From Marilutibacter penaei (GTDB taxonomy: Bacteria; Pseudomonadota; Gammaproteobacteria; Xanthomonadales; Xanthomonadaceae): a DNA stretch of 64,000 bases. The position numbers and the translations under genes are program-made. The stretch lies in NCBI RefSeq assembly GCF_014145395.1, contig NZ_JACHTE010000003.1:124001-188000 (forward strand), given 5' to 3'. The notes under the pieces were generated by a model. That model searched no databases. It saw only the letters and a program-made list of their open reading frames with translations, and was not told the origin of the DNA. Numbering within the stretch: position 1 is the stretch's first letter; the number at the start of each line of letters is the position of its first letter. Positions 28,169 through 51,352 of this stretch are shown one piece after another.

Positions 28169-30874
<2,706 letters not shown>

Positions 30875-30922: not shown

Positions 30923-32254
30923 CTAGCGAAGCCGCTCCGCCAGGTCCGGACGCGCCACGAATACGTGCGCCTTGCCCTGCTTGTGCCGTTGCATCAGCCT
31001 GGCATCCACCAACCCGACAAGGTCGGAGCGGGCGGTGTCATAGACGATGTCGTGCGTGCGCTGGTGCACGGCGATGGTGTAGGCCTTGCCAGGGTTCCTG
31101 AGCGCGTTCAGCAGGAGTGCGCGCTGACGGTGGTTCAGGCGACGCGCGAGCCTGCTGCCCGGCCTCAGCAAGGTCTGCGCCTCCGCTTGCAACTGCTGCT
31201 TGCGCGCGATGTAGCCGTGCACGCCATCGATGGCCTCGAGCAGGACCTCCAGTTGGTGGGCCACGAAGTAGCTGAGGTCGCCTTCGTCCGATTCGGTGAA
31301 CAGATAAGCGCGGGTGTATTGCGCCGGGGCGTTCTTGAGGATGCTGGAGATGGAGAAGTATTCCGTCATCCAGAAGCCGGCGCGAAGCATTGACCAGTAG
31401 AACAGCGCACGCGCCGTGCGCCCGTTGCCGTCCACGAAGGGATGGTCGTAGCCGATCATGAAGTGGATCACGATCGCCCGCACGACAGGATGGATGAAGT
31501 AATCGCCGTCGTCGGTCTGGTTGGCGAAGTCGCATAGCGCCTGCAACCGTTGCGGAAGCTCGCCCGCCGGGGGCGGCACGTGTAAGGTGGTACCGATCTC
31601 ATCCTCGACGACGATGTCCTCGCCGGCCATGCGGAAGCGTCCAGCTGCGCCGGGATCTTTCAGCGTGCCGTCGGTCAGCATCCGATGGATCTCGAACACG
31701 GTATCCGGCGTCAACGGTTGCCCCAGCCACCGCTTAAGCTCCCGCATCGTCATGAAATTGTTGGCGATCATGCGTTCGCCGTAGTCGCGCGGCGCACGCC
31801 CGGAGCGCAGCATGTCCTTGGCCACCTGGGTGGTGGTTGCTGCGCCTTCCAGTTGCGAGGAGGTCATGGCCTCTTCCATCAGCGAGCGCACCAGGTAACG
31901 CTCCTGCATTGCGCCGGTGGGAAGCGCGTCCGCACCCTGCAAGGCGCCCGCGGCGTCGCGGGCGACCTGGTACAGGCGGCGCTGGATGCCGTCGCTCGGG
32001 CAGACATGGAACGGCTTGCCAGTCTTGTCCTGCAGCGGAAGCTCCTTCCGCAAGGACTGCCGCGCCAGCTTGATGCCCAGCCACCATTGCTCGACGTCGA
32101 CGCCCTGTGGCGGCGTGAGATGTCGAAGGCGGTCCCAGTGCTCGTAGACGCCCCTGATCTCGGCGCGAATCCCGTGTCCCAGGATGGCTTGTATCTGCCC
32201 GGCATGGCGGTGGAAGAGGTCCAACCAGGGGGGCGGCGGAACGGGAAGCTTCAT
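30923..32254 (-). CDS. Fic-domain protein (AMP-transferase type) with winged-helix C-terminus
   Basis: 443 residues. The Fic motif HPFVDGNGRTAR (271-282) is complete, so it should transfer AMP or another nucleotide to a target hydroxyl. The inhibitory helix motif SxxxEG is present at Ser132-Gly137 (SSQLEG), placing it in the class with an N-terminal inhibitory helix. Residues about 370-443 look like a winged helix. ATG 32254 is preferred; a TTG at 32290 lies inside an inverted repeat. The gene is somewhat AT-richer than aceE. No antitoxin is encoded next to it, consistent with built-in inhibition. Confidence 0.9.
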   Translation of the reverse strand: MKLPVPPPPWLDLFHRHAGQIQAILGHGIRAEIRGVYEHWDRLRHLTPPQGVDVEQWWLGIKLARQSLRKELPLQDKTGKPFHVCPSDGIQRRLYQVARDAAGALQGADALPTGAMQERYLVRSLMEEAMTSSQLEGAATTTQVAKDMLRSGRAPRDYGERMIANNFMTMRELKRWLGQPLTPDTVFEIHRMLTDGTLKDPGAAGRFRMAGEDIVVEDEIGTTLHVPPPAGELPQRLQALCDFANQTDDGDYFIHPVVRAIVIHFMIGYDHPFVDGNGRTARALFYWSMLRAGFWMTEYFSISSILKNAPAQYTRAYLFTESDEGDLSYFVAHQLEVLLEAIDGVHGYIARKQQLQAEAQTLLRPGSRLARRLNHRQRALLLNALRNPGKAYTIAVHQRTHDIVYDTARSDLVGLVDARLMQRHKQGKAHVFVARPDLAERLR

Positions 32255-32266
32255 GGGTATCGACCG

Positions 32267-32302
32267 ATTTTCTACCGAAACATATAGCAATCGGTAGAAA
32301 AT
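32267..32302. promoter_or_regulatory. Perfect inverted repeat upstream of fic, likely operator
   Basis: ATTTTCTACCGA (32267-32278) and its exact reverse complement TCGGTAGAAAAT (32291-32302) flank a 12-base AT-rich spacer. The centre is about 30 bases before the fic ATG. The symmetric form, two arms about two helical turns apart, suits a dimeric DNA-binding protein, possibly the winged-helix part of Fic itself. That last point is inference. Confidence 0.75.
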
Positions 32303-33404: not shown

Positions 33405-33536
33405 TCAACGCCCCGCGAATGCGTGGATGATGTAGAAGAAACACCCGTCGTCAGCCCCTTTCTGTTTGAGGGCGCTCTCAGCCGCGGGCATGCAGTTGAT
33501 TCGCTTGACGCCGTGCTCAAATTTTCGAATGTTCAT
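33405..33536 (-). CDS. 43-aa ORF coupled to the RecB-like nuclease gene
   Basis: A small ORF starting MNIRKFEHGVKRINCMPAA and ending IIHAFAGR. Its ATG overlaps the stop of the nuclease gene by four bases (ATGA), and GGAG lies six bases before it, which is the normal signature of a translationally coupled downstream gene. It has two Cys (in INCMP and DGCFF), a basic N-terminal half and a short hydrophobic C-terminus. I do not recognise it. It could be a partner or regulator of the nuclease; it could also be a chance ORF of 43 codons. Confidence 0.5.
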   Translation of the reverse strand: MNIRKFEHGVKRINCMPAAESALKQKGADDGCFFYIIHAFAGR

Positions 33537-34447
33537 TCTTGCTCCGCCTCAAGTGGAACCTGTTGGAACCGTACCTGCAGACGTTTAATGAGTGCGCGGG
33601 TCTGCGCATTTGGAGCGCGCGTGCACACGAGGACAGCCTCGCCGTTGGGTACATAGCGCATGGCTTTCTGCTCAGCCCGCACGATCGCGCGATACTTCAC
33701 GCACTGGTAGACGCCCCTTTGGAGCTCATCCTCCGCGCACGTACTTGTCTTCACTTCCACGGCCAAGCGTTGCTTGCCATTGTCGAAGTGGACATCCAGC
33801 CTGTCGCCTGAGCTAAGCAACTTTTCATTCTTGCCGACGCTGAAGTTGCCGAAGTCGGCCAGCTCTTCAGGATGCTCAGCAACCCACTTTTTCAAAGCCT
33901 TATGCGTTGCACTTTCTAGGCCACCGCCTTGCTGGACGTTTGGAAGAGGGATGGCGTGTGGGCCGTCGCCCTCAGACTTCTTTCCGCTGGATACTGGAAG
34001 GATAGGCGCCCCTAGAGCTCGGGCAACGCGATCCCAGTCTGGGTAGGTGACAACATCCTGAAACGCTTCCTCGAAGTGAGCCTTTCGTTGATCCGCGGTA
34101 TCCATGGGCTTCCCTTCGAAATACGACGGAACGATATTCACAGCGCCCTCTCCGGGGATGCCCATGTTCTTATTGATGACTATGACGTGCAGTGGCGGAA
34201 TCGCCTCGGCCCATTGGCCGCTCAGCCACTCGATAGCCTGCGCAACGCCGCCGGCGACGCGGCCGTAGTTCAAAGCGTGCTTAATGGAATGACCGTTCCG
34301 ATCGTGTAGCTCACGGGCCAGGTCCGAGTACGACCGATGTTCGCCCTCCTTGGCCCACCGAAGAAGAATGGGTAGTGCATCGGGTACGAGCGGCCCCAGC
34401 TTCTCGCTCTGGGCCAACGGAATCAGCTTCCAGCTGAACTTCTCCAT
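33533..34447 (-). CDS. Putative RecB-like nuclease of the restriction island (304 aa)
   Basis: Not a family I can name. Residues about 178-255 fit a PD-(D/E)xK nuclease of the RecB/Cas4 style: LESATHKAL as motif I, Asp218 in GDRLDVHF, E231-V-K233 in LAVEVKTS, then QCVKY (QxxxY) at 248-252. The N-terminal 110 residues (HRSYSDLARELHD, then AIPPLHVIVINKNMGIPGEG) loosely resemble the DNA-binding wing of alkylguanine transferases, without the active Cys; this part is speculative. Start ATG 34447 has a GGAG seven bases upstream; a GTG at 34543 would add 32 residues. AT-rich like its neighbours and in the same direction as the restriction genes. Confidence 0.65.
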   Translation of the reverse strand: MEKFSWKLIPLAQSEKLGPLVPDALPILLRWAKEGEHRSYSDLARELHDRNGHSIKHALNYGRVAGGVAQAIEWLSGQWAEAIPPLHVIVINKNMGIPGEGAVNIVPSYFEGKPMDTADQRKAHFEEAFQDVVTYPDWDRVARALGAPILPVSSGKKSEGDGPHAIPLPNVQQGGGLESATHKALKKWVAEHPEELADFGNFSVGKNEKLLSSGDRLDVHFDNGKQRLAVEVKTSTCAEDELQRGVYQCVKYRAIVRAEQKAMRYVPNGEAVLVCTRAPNAQTRALIKRLQVRFQQVPLEAEQE

Positions 34448-34614
34448 TCGTTTTCTCCATTCTCGTTGATCGATGGTTGTTACAGATTCAAACGACTGAG
34501 CTCTAAAGTCCCTTTCAAGCGTCTTTGAATTCAATAGCTCCACATTTCGTGAGGCGTATTGAGAAAGCCGGCGTTGGAGTGGTTCGCCAAATCCGTTGGC
34601 GAGTCCGATGATAG

Positions 34615-35877
34615 TCAGGGGGACATGCCTGCCTGAGGATCGGGATCAGGCTGGCCAAGGAGATGAAACTCCCCCGGTGGGAAAAGTAGATCCATGTCGC
34701 GCCGCCATATCCTGAACAAAGGTCCTTGCTCTCTAACTCGCCCTCGCTTGTTCTTGGTGATCAGGTGGTCAACCGTGACCACGCCAGTTTCCAGCAGGGT
34801 TGGCAATGCAGACGCTATTGGCTTCTTGGTGTGCAGGACGCTTTCATATCTAAACTCCTCCGCGTCGGAAGCAAGCCTGTTGCTTCTCGCGGTCACCCAG
34901 AATGTTTCTGGGTGTTTCATTTGCAAGGCCGACTTCAATTCGTCAATACGCCAAGTGGCCACTTCCCTGAGATCTGGCTGGATGCTGCCTTCATGGAGGT
35001 AGGCACCATCGCTTGGTACAAGCAAGAAGAGTCCTTGGGTATTCGGGCCTCTTGCGGAAACAGTGCACCTCAGCTGCTTCAGGTAGCTGTCGCCACGGAC
35101 ATAGCCGAACCTGTCGAGTATCTCGGCGCTGCTTTTTAGGTTGCTAAGGTGCCAGTCTGGAACCTTTGCAAACAGCGTCTGTCGGGTGCTGGACCTGCTG
35201 CGACCTGCTTTTATCTCGATCCCCTTGTAGTCAGGGCTTCTTGAGCTATTGGGCCTAATGCCAAGCAGCTCTTCGAGCAATCGGCCCACTTCCGTATCCC
35301 TTCGTATCCCCGGTACTCCCGCATGCCATTTGCCTGCTATTCCGTGTAGTAGTTCGAGGAGTTCAGTGGCCGTGTCGTTTGAGCGCGCAACCAAAGGCGC
35401 CAATATCGTTTCGAGGTCGACGTCGATGGCGTCCCTGATCTCGATCCGTTCGCCAGCGCGGGGTGGTACTCCGGGGACCAGTCCAGCATTACTTGCGTTG
35501 ATGACCAGCAGTTCGTCTTTGCCGACAGCGACTAGGGCGAGCAAGTTGCCTGCTGATGCATGTTGCGCAAGACCATAGATCCAGATGCGTGGATCGCCAG
35601 CCTTCGTGACGGGTCTATAGAGGCTAGTCTGGGTTCCAACGATTCCGGCAGATGTCACGATTCGCGTGCGTAGCAGGCGCTTATGGGCTTGTCCTTGCGG
35701 CTGCCCTTCAAAGTCATGGAGCCCGCTGCTTCGAAGGAACTCACGGACATTGCCGGTGGCATCCATGATGCTTTTTGCCATTCCTGTTTCAGTAGGAACA
35801 AGCAGGCCTACTTCAATCCCGCGTTTCGTGAAGTATCTGAGAACCTCTTGGATCGATACATCTGACGTGGCGAGCAT
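34615..35877 (-). CDS. MvaI/BcnI-family type II restriction endonuclease
   Basis: 420 residues. The region GRLLEELLGIRPNSSRSPDY is followed by the catalytic D-x4-E-x-K in PDYKGIEIKAGR, exactly the spacing of MvaI/BcnI enzymes, which cut CCWGG or CCSGG as monomers. The N-terminal 180 residues form an extra domain of unknown role. It follows the cytosine methyltransferase by 28 bases with a GGGGGGA ribosome-binding region. Base composition is AT-richer than the chromosome, as usual for restriction genes. The exact recognition site cannot be read from sequence. Confidence 0.88.
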   Translation of the reverse strand: MLATSDVSIQEVLRYFTKRGIEVGLLVPTETGMAKSIMDATGNVREFLRSSGLHDFEGQPQGQAHKRLLRTRIVTSAGIVGTQTSLYRPVTKAGDPRIWIYGLAQHASAGNLLALVAVGKDELLVINASNAGLVPGVPPRAGERIEIRDAIDVDLETILAPLVARSNDTATELLELLHGIAGKWHAGVPGIRRDTEVGRLLEELLGIRPNSSRSPDYKGIEIKAGRSRSSTRQTLFAKVPDWHLSNLKSSAEILDRFGYVRGDSYLKQLRCTVSARGPNTQGLFLLVPSDGAYLHEGSIQPDLREVATWRIDELKSALQMKHPETFWVTARSNRLASDAEEFRYESVLHTKKPIASALPTLLETGVVTVDHLITKNKRGRVREQGPLFRIWRRDMDLLFPPGEFHLLGQPDPDPQAGMSP

Positions 35878-35905: not shown

Positions 35906-37237
35906 TTATCTCTCTAGGATGCCTCTGAGATGCTCGCCGACCGCCTTTGCCAACCCGACCGGCACCGCATTTCCGATCTGCGTGTACTTCGGGACTTCCC
36001 GGTCGAAGATGCCTTCGCGCGGATTGCCTGCCCGGCGAATACCGCCCGTGGTGCGCTTGCCCGCGAACTGGTACCAGTCCGGGAACATCTGGAGACGCGC
36101 CCATTCGCGAACGGTCAAGACGCGCGGTTGTGAGAAGTGCACGTAGTCGTCGGCGAGGGAGGTCGCAGTAATCGTCGGCCCGGCGTCACCCCATCGGGCG
36201 GGAAGCAGGCGCTGCGCGAACTTCTTGGTCTGGAACTCAGTCGGGACTGCGCCGCCGTTGGCATGCATGGCCTTGAACTTGGCGAGGATCCGCTCGTTGT
36301 GCTTGCTGTACTCGTGCTCCGTGAGCGGGTCGCCCTTCCGGAACGGCGTTCCCCCGCCCGCTGGCGTCCTGAGGTGCTTCTGGATCGCGGTGCGAGCAGC
36401 GGCGGGATATTGAACCGTCGCGCCACCGTTCTCATAGCCCGGGTCGACAAGGTCGCCAAGCAAGTCGATGAGGTCGGGCGCTTTGATCGAGCCGCCTGCA
36501 GGCAGGTAGCCACGTGCGATCGCATCCTCCGGATTGCCTTCCCGCGTGATGCCGCTGCCGACGTCATCGCGGATGCCGACCATCAGGACGCGCGGACGGT
36601 TCTGCGGGACGCCATAGTCTTTCGCGTAAACAAGGGAATAGGCGACGGAGTAACCGGGGATCTTCTGGTACGTGCCCAGGATGTCTTGCCAGATCTCACC
36701 ATTGCGCCCGTCGGTGGTCCACTTGCTGTGCAAGAGCCCACGGACGTTCTCGAACAGGAATGCACGAGGCCGCAGGCGGTGGATGATCGCCGCCATGTCC
36801 TGGAAGAGGTGGTTGGAAGGCAGCTGCTCCTTGTCGACCGAGTAGGACCGGCGATGGCCGATCCCGGAAAAGCCTTGGCATGGTGGGCCGCCCACTAGCA
36901 GGTCAAGCTCGCCATGCTCGATCCCGAAGATGCTTGCGAAGCGCTTCTCGAGCGACGGCAAGAACGCCTTGTCCAGCACCATGCCCTTGACGTCGGAAGA
37001 GTGGAAACCCGGCTCGGCCAGCCACTCATGGGCATCGACGCGGTTCTGGATGTATGTTCCCCGTGCATCCGGACTGAGTTCGTTGACGAACACGGGCGTG
37101 AAGCCAGCCTGTTCCAGGCCCAACGAGAGCCCGCCGCATCCTGCGAAAAGGTCCATGACCTTCAAGGTCTTCTTGTTCAATTTCTTGGCCTCCCGGCCCT
37201 GTGCCTGGGAAGGCAAGTATCCACCGTCCAATCTCAC
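35906..37237 (-). CDS. DNA (cytosine-5) methyltransferase, Dcm type
   Basis: 443 residues with the ordered C5-methyltransferase motifs: I DLFAGCGGLSLGLEQAGF, IV GGPPCQGFSG (catalytic Cys), VI FENVRGLL, VIII QNRPRVLMVG, a target-recognition region after it, and X QIGNAVPVGLAKAVG. It would protect the cognate endonuclease sites. The GTG start overlaps the vsr stop by four bases (GTGA), so translation is coupled; methionine alternatives inside would cut into motif I. Presence of Vsr implies methylation of the inner C of a CCNGG-type site, which agrees with the endonuclease family. Confidence 0.94.
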   Translation of the reverse strand: MRLDGGYLPSQAQGREAKKLNKKTLKVMDLFAGCGGLSLGLEQAGFTPVFVNELSPDARGTYIQNRVDAHEWLAEPGFHSSDVKGMVLDKAFLPSLEKRFASIFGIEHGELDLLVGGPPCQGFSGIGHRRSYSVDKEQLPSNHLFQDMAAIIHRLRPRAFLFENVRGLLHSKWTTDGRNGEIWQDILGTYQKIPGYSVAYSLVYAKDYGVPQNRPRVLMVGIRDDVGSGITREGNPEDAIARGYLPAGGSIKAPDLIDLLGDLVDPGYENGGATVQYPAAARTAIQKHLRTPAGGGTPFRKGDPLTEHEYSKHNERILAKFKAMHANGGAVPTEFQTKKFAQRLLPARWGDAGPTITATSLADDYVHFSQPRVLTVREWARLQMFPDWYQFAGKRTTGGIRRAGNPREGIFDREVPKYTQIGNAVPVGLAKAVGEHLRGILER

Positions 37238-37656
37238 GCTCCGCGACGCAGTCTGTTGGCGAGCTTGTCGATCGCGCGCTCACGCGTCGACGCCTTCGCG
37301 AGTTCACATTCCCAAAGGGTCAGCACCCGCCAACCCATCGACCTCAAGGCCCTGTTGTTCCGGGCATCCCGCTTGCGGTTCGCTTCGAACTTGGCTTGCC
37401 AGAAAGCTCCCCGGGTCGATGGGATCCTCCCTTTTTGGCATGCATGGGCATGCCAGAAGCAACCATGGACGAAGACTACCGCGCCATACTTTGGCAGAAC
37501 CAAGTCTGGCCGTCCAGGGAGATCCTTGCGCTGGAGGCTGAACCGAAAGCCTCGCGCATGCAGGCCCCGCCGCACCCAAAGCTCAGGCTTGGTGTCCCGG
37601 CTCCGGATCCGGGACATGCGCTCACTGCGTCCCTCGGGGGTCAAGGTATCGACCAT
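37234..37656 (-). CDS. vsr: Very short patch repair endonuclease
   Basis: 140 residues, full length. It nicks 5' of the T in T:G mismatches that arise when 5-methylcytosine deaminates at the methyltransferase's sites. Family residues: RMSRIRSRDTKPELWVRR (catalytic Glu), LPGRPDLVLPKYGAVVFVHGCFWHAHAC (metal Asp, catalytic His, zinc His/Cys), and RSMGWRVLTLWECEL. It is the first gene of the vsr-dcm-endonuclease run; its promoter must lie in or next to the 22-bp repeat array upstream. Confidence 0.95.
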   Translation of the reverse strand: MVDTLTPEGRSERMSRIRSRDTKPELWVRRGLHARGFRFSLQRKDLPGRPDLVLPKYGAVVFVHGCFWHAHACQKGRIPSTRGAFWQAKFEANRKRDARNNRALRSMGWRVLTLWECELAKASTRERAIDKLANRLRRGA

Positions 37657-37748: not shown

Positions 37749-38056
37749 ACCCCAAGAGCTCGAAGCTTCCACCCCAAGAGGTCCAGCCTTCGACCTCAAA
37801 GGGTCGGAGCTTCCACCCCAAAAGGTCCAACCTCCCACCCCAGGAGCTCGAACCTTCCACCCCAAAAGGTCCAACCTTCGACCTCTGAAGGTCCAAGCTT
37901 CCACCCCGGAAGGTCGAAGCTTCGACCTCGATAGGTCCAGGCTTCCACCTCGGGAGGTCGAACCTTCCACCCCTTAGGGTCCAGGCTTCCACCCCAAAAG
38001 GTCGAAACTTCCACCCCTGGGGCTCCAACCCCCGACCCCCAGAGGTCCAAGCCCCA
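37749..38056. repeat. Tandem array of fourteen 22-bp degenerate near-palindromic units
   Basis: Fourteen head-to-tail units of exactly 22 bp, each of the form ACC(C/T)C-NNN-(A/G)GGTCSAASCTTCS, with no spacers. The three N positions vary most. Across unit boundaries the sequence forms AGGT-SS-AAGCTT-SS-ACCT dyads; the one at 37911-37928 (AGGTCGAAGCTTCGACCT) is a perfect 18-bp palindrome. The period is not a multiple of three and both strands stay open in several frames, so it is not coding. It fills most of the 493-bp gap between vsr and the next gene. Confidence 0.9.
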
Positions 38057-38095
38057 AACAAACCCGGCGGAAGGGCTTCCGCCACCTCCGCCGGG
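38053..38095 (-). terminator. Rho-independent terminator of the 160-aa hypothetical gene
   Basis: Read on the minus strand, CCCGGCGG (38095-38088) pairs with CCGCCGGG (38070-38063), and the tail TTTGTTTGGGG follows. An inner GGCGGAAG/CTTCCGCC pairing competes with it. It lies directly against the repeat array. Confidence 0.8.
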
Positions 38096-38149: not shown

Positions 38150-38632
38150 TCAGAACGGCTTGGGCGCGGGGTCCGGCTCGGGGTCGGTCGGGCGGCGCTT
38201 GCGGGCGAAGCGGGTGGACAGTTCGCGGCGGGCGCTCTTGAGCGCTTCGCCCTTGCCGGACACTTCGAGCAGGCGGTAGCCCTCGAGGGCGATGGCCATC
38301 ATGTCGCTGCCCAGGGCCATCTCGGTGTCGTCGGCGCGTTCGACCAGCTGGTGCAGTTGCTGCAGGCGCGGGCGCAGGTGCTCCAGCGCGGTGCGGTCGG
38401 CGAGCGCTTCGTCCAGACCGAGGTTGGGCGGGACCATCTGGCGGTTGTTGTCGAGCAGGGTCAGGGCCTGCTCGCAGAACTCGCGCGACTTGGGGCCCAT
38501 TTTCTTCAGCTCGATGCGGTCGCTGGGCTGCAGGGCGACGAACGGGGTGAACACCCGCTGCAGCGTGGCGATGGCGGCGTCGAGGTCGGCGAGGTCCTGT
38601 TCGGACAGGGTGAGTGAAATCAGGTTCTGCAT
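38150..38632 (-). CDS. Conserved hypothetical protein (160 aa)
   Basis: A helical soluble protein beginning MQNLISLTLSEQDLADLDAA and ending in a Lys/Arg/Pro-rich tail. The centre contains RIELKKMGPKSREFCEQAL and ALGSDMMAIALEGYRLLEVSGKGE, which I recall as conserved in hypothetical proteins of several phyla but cannot assign. The start is chosen by an AAGGAAA ribosome-binding site; the longer upstream reading is Pro/Arg-rich and not conserved in style. It has its own terminator. Confidence 0.75.
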   Translation of the reverse strand: MQNLISLTLSEQDLADLDAAIATLQRVFTPFVALQPSDRIELKKMGPKSREFCEQALTLLDNNRQMVPPNLGLDEALADRTALEHLRPRLQQLHQLVERADDTEMALGSDMMAIALEGYRLLEVSGKGEALKSARRELSTRFARKRRPTDPEPDPAPKPF

Positions 38633-38836
38633 TTGGCTTTCCTTATCTCCGTGTGCGAGTCCGGGCGTGCCAGGTGGCTGGGCCGGACGGTCCATGCTCC
38701 GCCGCGTTCCGTGCGGGCGGGTGTTGCGAGGCTGCGGTGCTGCGTGACCGACCGGGGTCGGCGGGGGAGCGGGCCGAGTGTGGCAGAGGGGGGATCGGCC
38801 GGAAACTGTGCGGCGGGGTACGTCGTGCACCCCGTC

Positions 38837-39334
38837 TCACCCCGCCTCCAGCTCCCGCTGCGTCAGGTACAGCCGCAGGTCGAACTCAAGCTGGTGGTAG
38901 TCGGGCGCCATGTGCGTGCACAGCTGGTAGAAGGCCTTGTTGTGCTCGGCTTCCTTCAGGTGCGCGAGTTCGTGCACCACGATCATCTTGAGGAACTCGG
39001 CGGGGGCATCGCGGAACACGCTGGCGATGCGGATCTCGCGGCTCGCCTTGAGCCGGCCGCCGTGGACGCGCGACACCGCGGTGTGGGTGCCCAGGGCCTG
39101 CTTCACCACCTGCAGCTTGCCGTCGTAGAGGACCTTGCCCAGCGGCACGGCCTTGCGCAGGTAGCGGTTCTTGAGCGCCTGCACGTAGTCGTACAGCTGG
39201 CCATCGTTGCGCACGGCGTGGGGCTCGGGGTACTTGTCGGACAGCATCGCGCCCAGCCGGTCCCGTGCGATCAGCGCGCGCACCTGGTCCTGCAGGTGCG
39301 GGGGATAGCCGGCGAGGTACTTCAGCGGTTGCAT
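38837..39334 (-). CDS. YgjP/SprT-like zinc metallopeptidase (M48/DUF45 type)
   Basis: 165 residues with the zinc motif VVHELAHLKE followed by EHNKAFYQLCTHMAPDY, the standard third-ligand region of YgjP-type proteins. LKASREIRIASVFRDAP and FLKMIVVHELAH match the family order. It is probably a cytosolic protease or nuclease-associated factor; the bacterial role is not established. MQPLKYLAGYP is taken as the start because it begins the conserved region; an in-frame ATG at 39364 would add ten residues. Confidence 0.88.
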   Translation of the reverse strand: MQPLKYLAGYPPHLQDQVRALIARDRLGAMLSDKYPEPHAVRNDGQLYDYVQALKNRYLRKAVPLGKVLYDGKLQVVKQALGTHTAVSRVHGGRLKASREIRIASVFRDAPAEFLKMIVVHELAHLKEAEHNKAFYQLCTHMAPDYHQLEFDLRLYLTQRELEAG

Positions 39335-39413
39335 CGGCGCGGGCGATGCGGCGACGGCCCCCATGATGGGCCGCGACCGGGGGAAGGGCCAGCCGCGCGA
39401 GTGTTGCGCGGCG

Positions 39414-40121
39414 CTAGTCTGCCCCGTCCCGCCGGCGGTCGTACCAGAGTTCGAGCCCCTCGCGGGACTGCAGGATGCCGCGGCCGCGGAACACCAGGCG
39501 CAGCATCAGGCGCAGGTGTTCGCCGGGGCTGAAAGTGCGCAGCTTGCGGTCGGAGGTGCGGACCGACTCGCGCAGGACGACGAAGCGGCCGTGGCCGGCC
39601 AGCGTGCGGCTCATGGCGACGTCCTCGCCGGCGTACCAGCGCGGGTCGAAGCCACCGACCGCATCGAAGGCCGCGCGGGTGCAGAACAGGAAACAGCCGG
39701 GTGCGATGCGGGTCCAGCGGAAGCCGACCGCCGCGACCGCGGCGACGGCGCGTTCGTGCCAGCGCGCGGCGCGGGCCAAACGCACGCGGCAGCCCCCGCC
39801 GACGGCGCCGTCGTTCATCGCACGCATCGCCGCGCCGAGCACTTCGGCATCGACCAGGGTGTCGGCATCGAGGAACAGCAGCCGCGGATAGCGGGCCACC
39901 GCGGCCCCGGCATTGCGGGTAGCGGCGATCTGCCGGTGCTCGACACGCAGCACCCGCGCGCCGCGCGCGGCGGCGATCTCGGCGGTGCCGTCGCTCGACG
40001 CGTCGTCGACCACGATCACCTCGTGCACCAGGCCGAGCGCGCGCGTGGCGGTCGCCAGCGCATCGAGCGTCGCGCCGATCAGCGCGGCTTCGTCATGGGC
40101 GGGGATGATCACCGAGAGCAT
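39414..40121 (-). CDS. Family 2 glycosyltransferase
   Basis: 235 residues. GT-A fold marks: MLSVIIPAHDEAALIGATL, the nucleotide-sugar site VVDDASSDGTAEI, the DxD-type LFLDADTLVDAE, and the acceptor-side GEDVAMSRTL. No membrane helices, so it is likely cytosolic or peripheral. The sugar and acceptor are unknown. It lies 80 bases upstream of the metallopeptidase gene in the same direction. Confidence 0.88.
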   Translation of the reverse strand: MLSVIIPAHDEAALIGATLDALATATRALGLVHEVIVVDDASSDGTAEIAAARGARVLRVEHRQIAATRNAGAAVARYPRLLFLDADTLVDAEVLGAAMRAMNDGAVGGGCRVRLARAARWHERAVAAVAAVGFRWTRIAPGCFLFCTRAAFDAVGGFDPRWYAGEDVAMSRTLAGHGRFVVLRESVRTSDRKLRTFSPGEHLRLMLRLVFRGRGILQSREGLELWYDRRRDGAD

Positions 40122-40202
40122 GCGCGCAGGGTGGCACGTCCGCTTGCGTGGCGGAGGTGAAGGCGACTCGTCGATGTTCAGGTGCGGGTCGGGCGACGCC
40201 AC

Positions 40203-50587: not shown

Positions 50588-51352
50588 TCAGCGCTTGTCG
50601 CGCTTGCCCTGCGCGTGCCGGTCGTGGGTGCTGATGCTGCCCTGGATGGCCTGCATGCGGCTCTCGCCGGCATGTAGCGTTTCGGCATGGGCATGCGCGC
50701 CTTCGCTACCGTGGCCATGCACGCCGCCGTGCGGTTCGCCATGGCCCTCATGGTGACCGATTGCCTGCCATGCGGGGGTCTCGCGATCGTGGGCCTGCTT
50801 GGCCTCGAGGAGCTTGCGCGTATTGGCGAGCGCCTGCTTGCGGGTGATCTTCTTTTGGGTGGATTTCGACGCCGGCGTCTTCCGTGCCGCTGCGGCGGGG
50901 GCAGTCGACCGCGTGGCGGCCTTCTTCGATGCCGCCTTCTTCGCAGCAGCCTTCTTCGCCGTGGTCTTCTTCGCAGCAGTCTTCTTGGCAGTCGTCTTCT
51001 TCGCGGCTGCCTTTTTCGCAGTCTTTTTCGTCGCAGTAGCCGTCTTTGCGGTCGCCTTCCGGGCGGTGGTCTTGCTGGCCGAACTCTTCTTTGAAGCGGA
51101 TTTGGAGGCGGCTGCCTTTTTCGTCGTTGCCTTCTTCGCTGTCGCCTTCTTCGCCGCGGCCTTTTGGGTGGTCGCCTTCTTGGCTGTGCGGCTCGACGAC
51201 GTGGCCGCGCGCTTGCGCGCTTTCAGGGACGCGGCTTCGTCCTTGGCCGCCTGGCTGGCGGCGCGCAGGTTGCGTCGCGCCGTGCCAACGATCTTGCGGG
51301 CGGTCTTGCGAGGGGACGAAGCCCCGTCGGACGGGGTGCGCGTGCTTGCCAT
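50588..51352 (-). CDS. Histone H1-like Lys/Ala-rich protein with His-rich tail (254 aa)
   Basis: Residues about 1-55 are a basic N-terminal part (KTARKIVGTARRNLRAAS). Residues about 55-165 are an almost pure Lys/Ala/Thr repeat of KKA, KKT and AKK units like the C-terminal tail of histone H1 and bacterial AlgP/HctB-type proteins. Then comes a short KITRKQALANTRKLL helix and a His/Gly-rich tail (about 205-235, GHHEGHGEPHGGVHGHG). It is expected to bind DNA non-specifically and compact the nucleoid; the His tail may bind metal. The repetitive DNA is prone to copy-number change. Confidence 0.85.
   Translation of the reverse strand: MASTRTPSDGASSPRKTARKIVGTARRNLRAASQAAKDEAASLKARKRAATSSSRTAKKATTQKAAAKKATAKKATTKKAAASKSASKKSSASKTTARKATAKTATATKKTAKKAAAKKTTAKKTAAKKTTAKKAAAKKAASKKAATRSTAPAAAARKTPASKSTQKKITRKQALANTRKLLEAKQAHDRETPAWQAIGHHEGHGEPHGGVHGHGSEGAHAHAETLHAGESRMQAIQGSISTHDRHAQGKRDKR

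Follow-up and report, generated by a model that had tools for sequence, protein, structure and literature searches.

A small gene and an adjacent array of near-palindromic repeats form a recurring chromosomal locus, a possible landing site for genes of bacterial immunity

We found that a gene for a small protein, here called X, and a tandem array of near-palindromic units form a recurring two-part locus, and that the array pairs with X rather than with vsr, the restriction-associated gene on its other side in the stretch of 64,000 nucleotides analysed here (the window). The position of the X-array block is constant in several genera at one locus and in three species at another, the genes beside it turn over, and vsr genes occur near X more often than expected by chance. 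Since different species keep the block in place but differ in the restriction and other genes next to it, the block may act as a site where immune genes land. A dedicated gene-array pair fixed across genera would make it testable why defence genes accumulate at certain chromosomal sites.

A 14-unit array adjoins gene X

The array in the window (37749-38056, no strand assigned) consists of 14 contiguous units of exactly 22 bp, without an indel, and has the consensus ACCYC-NNN-RGGTCSAASCTTCS. Nine of the 22 positions are invariant and positions 6-8 are the most variable. The self-match at a lag of 22 is 0.72, compared with at most 0.41 at the best of any lag from 5 to 99 in 2000 shuffles, and among the 30 rows returned by TRF for the window the array has the top score (37749-38050, score 331). 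The exact 14 x 22-bp register over 308 bp and the three hypervariable positions per unit, both described in a previous sequence-only reading of this DNA, are thus confirmed. Its description of the units as dyads holds for a perfect 18-bp palindrome, AGGTCGAAGCTTCGACCT, located at 37911-37928 inside the array, and less well elsewhere: the dyad is degenerate, so that most units are merely near-palindromes. A second, shorter dyad has to be added, giving two centres per unit and one about every 11 bp, the first at AASCTT and the shorter one at the variable triplet. The proximal and distal thirds of the array do not differ, and therefore no directional decay was seen along it. A split array with a second half at the aceE end was rejected, because the model places window-type units solely at 37749-38055 in the window.

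On the flank away from vsr, gene X is followed by a terminator-like hairpin and then by the array. X (38150-38632, minus strand) is unannotated and encodes 160 aa with a predicted all-helical fold and no convincing known family. It is preceded by a leader/promoter block of ~150 bp (38633-38782, minus strand), near the far end of which homology between close X relatives usually stops. The hairpin, with its T-rich tail, was placed at 38057-38095 (minus strand) by eye, and its listed core, 38065-38084, is not above chance, with 1.1 such sites expected in that stretch.

The array pairs with X across loci

In gene contexts, a relative of X adjoins an array in G043, and G000, the genome of the window, has an X paralogue next to an array other than the window's. 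The results given here are for 90 of the loci matching X (30 + 60), near which any tandem repeat was sought by TRF regardless of sequence, with 92 pieces of 2 kb from nearby contexts as controls. Arrays with a period of 20-23 bp, or multiples thereof, were present in 55/90 X loci (43 downstream and 12 upstream of the gene). Scores of at least 60 were reached in 48 loci and of at least 80 in 38, all within 436 bp of X; among the control pieces, 8/92 reached a score of 50, 2/92 reached 60 and none reached 80. A periodic model, which is more sensitive but also scores on ordinary genomic DNA, agreed with this, detecting an array in 49/90 X loci and 3/122 control pieces at 150 bits, and in 43/90 X loci at a strict cut lying above every control piece. 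At a loose cut of 85 bits, set against shuffles, 75/90 X loci and 26/122 control pieces passed and 15/90 loci fell below; this cut was dropped because real genomic pieces reach 164 bits, which we read as codon periodicity, and at least 165 bits together with TRF was used instead. A literature search limited to open PMC papers, a scope outside which most subscription papers lie, returned no description of the X-array pair.

X is a multi-copy family confined to one bacterial family in our searches

Protein searches matched X in 64/198 genomes, spread over 23/54 genera of a single bacterial family. A genome has at most 11 matches, and some matches contain in-frame stops. In the genome with eleven matches (G104), the array types differ. 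No relative was found outside the family in 398 genomes of the phylum, with up to nine candidates scored per genome, in plasmid and phage collections searched with one query, or in viral contigs searched with the family pattern. X-like proteins may also occur in Bacteroidota.

For the alignment we used 83 of the 90 proteins, excluding 7 with stops or unusual length. Searches of X members against Pfam, NCBIfam, PHROGs and PDB sequences gave scattered weak matches and no consistent one. There was no transposase or integrase among the Pfam, NCBIfam and PHROGs families listed for X members, and the Y1 transposase domain of RAYT proteins was absent among the 17 Pfam families listed for the 83 members. 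No Rep or ParA/ParB-type protein was recognised in these searches; single weak matches (a ParB domain, E = 0.041; a plasmid partitioning model, E = 0.034) were taken as noise. AlphaFold2 predicts an all-helical structure that includes a helix of 53 residues (pLDDT 89, pTM 0.70), and a fold search with it in PDB and BFVD gave no significant match. The net charge is near zero (median pI 5.7); Arg/Lys residues are conserved at positions on the long helix, and a basic segment lies close to the C-terminus.

Close relatives of X carry a short common stretch upstream of the gene. Among 10 pairs of X loci with protein identity of at least 84%, nine share 146-187 bp directly upstream, with no further homology in the flank examined, and the tenth shares none. 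The border can be sharp: in L075/L076, 98.6% identity extends across 146 bp and then ceases. Exceptions occur at lower identity, where L090/L089 share 465 bp upstream and L073/L072 share a glycosyltransferase region farther out. In one of these loci (L073, G028), whose X relative stands at 83% identity, no array was seen in the 738 bp examined, which hold two small ORFs that look toxin-antitoxin-like by eye.

The block stays in place while its neighbours change

We compared 43 X contexts, comprising 40 fetched ones, L023, L070 and the window. In seven of these, from six genera, aceE (pyruvate dehydrogenase E1) lies on the array side, at a distance of 109 to 7640 bp. The window's aceE (28169-30874, plus strand; 85% identity to that of G087, with Pfam run on the relatives) has its 3' end facing the array and forms the conserved far border of a variable interval. 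There the gap holds a Fic/DOC-domain ORF (30923-32290), another ORF, a 336-aa ORF of low GC3 without a Pfam match (33533-34543), an MvaI/BcnI-family restriction endonuclease (34615-35877), a dcm-like C5 DNA methylase (35906-37237) and the mismatch endonuclease vsr (37234-37656), whose start is 92 bp from the array; the coordinates given are all on the minus strand, and we regard the last four genes as island cargo. In the other three of the four gaps compared, G043 has other low-GC ORFs, G026 a 1009-aa ORF without a Pfam match, and G087 no cargo.

On the gene side, the window has a YgjP-like metallopeptidase (38837-39364, minus strand) as border, followed by a family 2 glycosyltransferase (39414-40202, minus strand) with relatives on the same side in G028 and G087. 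The distance from YgjP to the block is 57 bp in the window versus 2.9 kb in G043. In G001 and G006 a different gene follows YgjP, and X is absent from the 1.5 kb examined. At a second locus, g4, X, the array and core B are collinear in three species, with gene-side cargo that differs by species (a Schlafen-type helicase; a type I methylase and GmrSD; a type I methylase). A common left flank of this locus was found in two of the three species, at distances of 2.5 kb and 7.5 kb from the block. Conserved borders with interchangeable content, by which we define a hotspot, were therefore found at the aceE locus and at one g4 locus; some other loci had no common flanks within 20 kb. Inspection by eye of a few island borders revealed neither att sites nor target duplications, and a few loci showed no terminal repeats at their borders.

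Base composition changes near the block. GC beside it is lower than farther out in 32/43 contexts (p = 9e-4, Wilcoxon). On the gene side, ORFs with GC3 below 0.75 make up 54% of 128 near ORFs versus 25% of 106 far ones; on the array side the near ORFs are not lower (37% of 126 versus 35% of 110). Near ORFs carry restriction and defence-related Pfam families (144/254 scanned; HNH_2, 4; C5 methylase, N6 methylase, Schlafen helicase and NERD, 3 each; MvaI_BcnI, Vsr and Methylase_S, 2 each), and far ORFs (138/216 scanned) have GmrSD and AAA_21, 2 each, among the 25 families listed. This comparison is descriptive, since ORF calling was mechanical and the listing covers the top 25 families, so that families with a single member are mostly hidden. 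PADLOC families number 242 near and 253 far (5-8.5 kb away), and by that count there is no near/far difference.

The reading we prefer, which we hold to be evenly poised between right and wrong, is that the gene and its array are the two parts of a single chromosomal locus that marks, and perhaps creates, an island hotspot. The array would serve as a DNA platform whose ~15 degenerate quasi-palindromic sites are spaced by two helical turns and occupied on one helix face by a protein dimer, in the simplest case X, or else a partner. The block would be inherited in place, with cargo, often restriction or other defence genes, gained and lost on either side of it, where the X leader ends and past the far end of the array. 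As the block is kept in place while cargo turns over, it would mark the hotspot and may help to create or maintain it. Binding by X, its cooperativity, and a bearing on insertion rather than mere tolerance are what we infer. Against this reading, no DNA-binding domain was recognised in X, a nearly neutral protein, and the hotspot and the vsr excess could instead reflect a common tolerant site. Also counting against it are the weak dependence of unit similarity on X identity, the X loci that fall below the strict cut or even the loose one, the window-type arrays with no clear X, the array-side GC3 and the PADLOC counts, neither of which separates near from far ORFs, and the absence of att sites and target duplications at the few borders inspected.

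A serious rival, which we judge unlikely, holds that the block is itself cargo, namely a small mobile or defence element resident in islands whose array serves as its own regulatory or decoy DNA. This would accord with the patchy presence of X (64/198 genomes), its up to 11 matches per genome with occasional in-frame stops, the many restriction and defence families among its neighbours and its absence beside YgjP in G001 and G006, as well as with a near-identical X (97%) in two genera that have ~146 bp of common leader and no homology just beyond. However, the aceE and g4 loci keep the block and vary in its neighbours, and neither the families listed for X members nor the plasmid, phage and viral searches described above link X to a transposase, an integrase or a mobile replicon.

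Arrays keep their geometry while the unit sequence drifts

Of the 65 X loci that score 110 bits or more, 55 have a best period of 21 bp, 8 of 22, 1 of 24 and 1 of 27. The 43 strong arrays have a mean period of 21.15 bp (median 21.07, i.e. two helical turns) and a median of 17 units. Consensus units are more palindromic than shuffled ones (mean 5.63 versus 4.61 of 7 pairs, over the 75 arrays passing the loose 85-bit cut). Unit sequences vary widely between X-array copies, but period, size and quasi-palindromy persist. Unit similarity averages 0.81 in 6 pairs with X identity above 80% and ~0.50 below 55%; its correlation with X identity is weak (Mantel rho 0.154, with 4/999 permutations as high) and disappears below ~55-60% identity. 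By eye, the side of X on which the array lies (3' or 5') tracks the clades of the X tree.

The recurrence of degenerate dyads with a ~21-22-bp period beside X bears out the sequence-only reading of the array as a multi-site near-palindromic element, and a spacing of about two turns of B-DNA would fit a row of protein sites on one helix face. That reading had also excluded a CRISPR, rightly so: both combine a gene with a repeat array, but here the units are contiguous with a period of 21-22 bp, just three adjacent positions are hypervariable in the window, the whole unit drifts, and there are no unique spacers.

Could the array be a neutral satellite, its register kept by slippage or unequal exchange? 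Arrays do diverge faster than the adjacent gene in L075/L076 and L106/L115, and several show higher-order repeats of 42-44 bp. We nevertheless consider this improbable, because arrays recur beside one gene family despite unrelated unit sequences, their period stays near two helical turns and quasi-palindromy is retained.

At the RNA level, we could not detect compensatory changes at dyad pairs in the 43 strong arrays (965 paired cells versus 957.8 expected, z = 0.52; 76 double changes versus 77.1 expected), nor covariation at dyads in the window-type arrays alone, supporting that the symmetry is not that of an RNA stem. In addition, permuting unit order left the fold energy unchanged in six arrays, and local or long hairpins were rejected on these two grounds. 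A persistent period and quasi-palindromy without compensatory changes suggest protein sites at the DNA level. A transcribed array acting as RNA (a guide array, a repeat sRNA or a structured 3' element) is thus very improbable. Its G/T-rich strand runs with X transcription in the window and in G043 and folds more stably, and the unit is near-palindromic; yet, besides the two results above, no Rfam match overlaps an array or leader in 16 loci, the terminator-like hairpin separates X from the array in the window, and in another clade the array lies 5' of X. A coding array was rejected as well, in agreement with the previous claim that it is not a gene, because 22-bp and mixed 21/22-bp arrays cannot keep one reading frame; we took the long open frames across arrays as a by-product of base composition.

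Restriction genes lie near X beyond chance

The 43 contexts come from 31 X-bearing genomes, which hold 11 vsr genes. Seven of the 11 lie within 10 kb of an X match, versus 0.21 expected under uniform placement (p ~ 1e-10, in a test chosen after the window and the contexts had been seen), with five within 5 kb and four within 3 kb. The excess persists without the window (6/10 within 10 kb, p = 2.5e-9). Each of the remaining four vsr genes lies either on a contig that lacks an X match or hundreds of kb away from one. Next to another X, G091 carries a similar cassette of vsr, dcm and MvaI (identities of 64%, 80% and 60%, respectively). Relatives of vsr occur in 5/43 X contexts (the window, L193, L207, L210 and L217).

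The link between the array and restriction genes proposed from the sequence therefore extends beyond chance, and the accompanying suggestion that the array may mark an integration site is consistent with a block that adjoins turning-over cargo at the aceE and g4 loci. The proposal that the array is mainly a promoter or regulator of vsr-dcm is not supported, as like arrays occur beside X at many loci and 38/43 contexts lack vsr. That it is the promoter or operator of a vsr-dcm-MvaI operon is hardly credible: it ends 92 bp before vsr, but vsr relatives are absent from the remaining six contexts in which aceE faces the array, and in G087 the array lies 109 bp from aceE with no cargo between.

A survey of such arrays and their flanking genes in relatives, which had been put forward as a check, turned up window-type arrays with neither X nor vsr adjoining, in G000 and other genomes, and the proposal had missed the partner gene X. 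A DNA search of 395 genomes of the same family gave three with matches to the window array. A covariance model built on sequence only matched at least six genomes, with few candidates scored per genome, of which four (G000, G011, G040 and G043) were accepted after parsing; the matches in G048 and G306 were rejected at that step as not being arrays of the window kind. A fixed-pattern scan of genome contigs yielded four single matches and no array, the pattern being too narrow for the array family because unit sequences differ. Parsed window-type arrays have ~12-18 units of 21-22 bp. One of 16 units is on a different contig of G000 (C13:168837-169190; L002, L026); it begins 15 bp after a long ORF, kinase-like by eye, with no clear X in its 20-kb context. 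Window-type arrays with no clear X in 20-kb contexts were also seen at L022, L024, L025, L068 and L069 (G043, G040 and G011).

Comparison with known systems

The core defence hotspots cDHS1/2 of Pseudomonas aeruginosa are defined by ordinary core marker genes (PMC10250203). As far as the parts of that account considered here go, they resemble X loci in that the flanking genes are conserved, the defence content varies, GC is lower inside and no single mobilising mechanism is obvious, and differ in that no dedicated gene-plus-repeat-array is described for them (PMC10250203).

Two other systems combine repeats with a gene. In the iteron arrays of plasmid origins and partition centromeres, near-palindromic sites are repeated in tandem at a spacing of two helical turns next to a small gene, an arrangement that the X-array locus shares; in contrast to them, X has no convincing Rep, ParA or ParB match, the contigs are chromosomal and a genome holds many diverged copies. 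REP/BIME elements with RAYT transposases are palindromic repeats near gene 3' ends with a single linked gene and extra copies without it, again as in the X-array family, whereas X has no transposase match in Pfam and its units are contiguous, 21-22 bp long and ~9-30 per array.

It is possible, if doubtful, that the X-array locus represents a novel type of genetic element. It would be a landing pad in the chromosome, complete in itself, in which a small DNA-binding protein and its own fast-evolving multi-site array attract or protect defence-gene insertion next to them, with several diverged and possibly orthogonal copies per genome. The pair would serve as a sequence marker for finding islands. 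A family without a convincing Pfam, NCBIfam or PHROGs match, whose arrays change sequence and keep their geometry, would also offer a clean case of co-evolution between a protein and its DNA sites.

Some X loci have RNA genes nearby. At L084:2603-2830, ~600-850 bp past X, a C4 antisense RNA scores above its gathering threshold, with weaker c4-a1b1 and isrK matches, and is perhaps a P4-like phage element beside the X-array. At L152:1008-1093, ~400 bp from X, Rfam sRNA-Xcc1 scores just above its gathering threshold, and a very regular 21-bp array lies on the other side of X. Together with a remark in the sequence-only reading, this match points to Xanthomonadaceae as the probable host family. 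Elsewhere in the window, positions 50919-51181 hold repeats of 15/30 bp with GCCTTCTTCGC units, perhaps, as judged by eye, the repetitive tail of a lysine/alanine-rich protein encoded on the minus strand.
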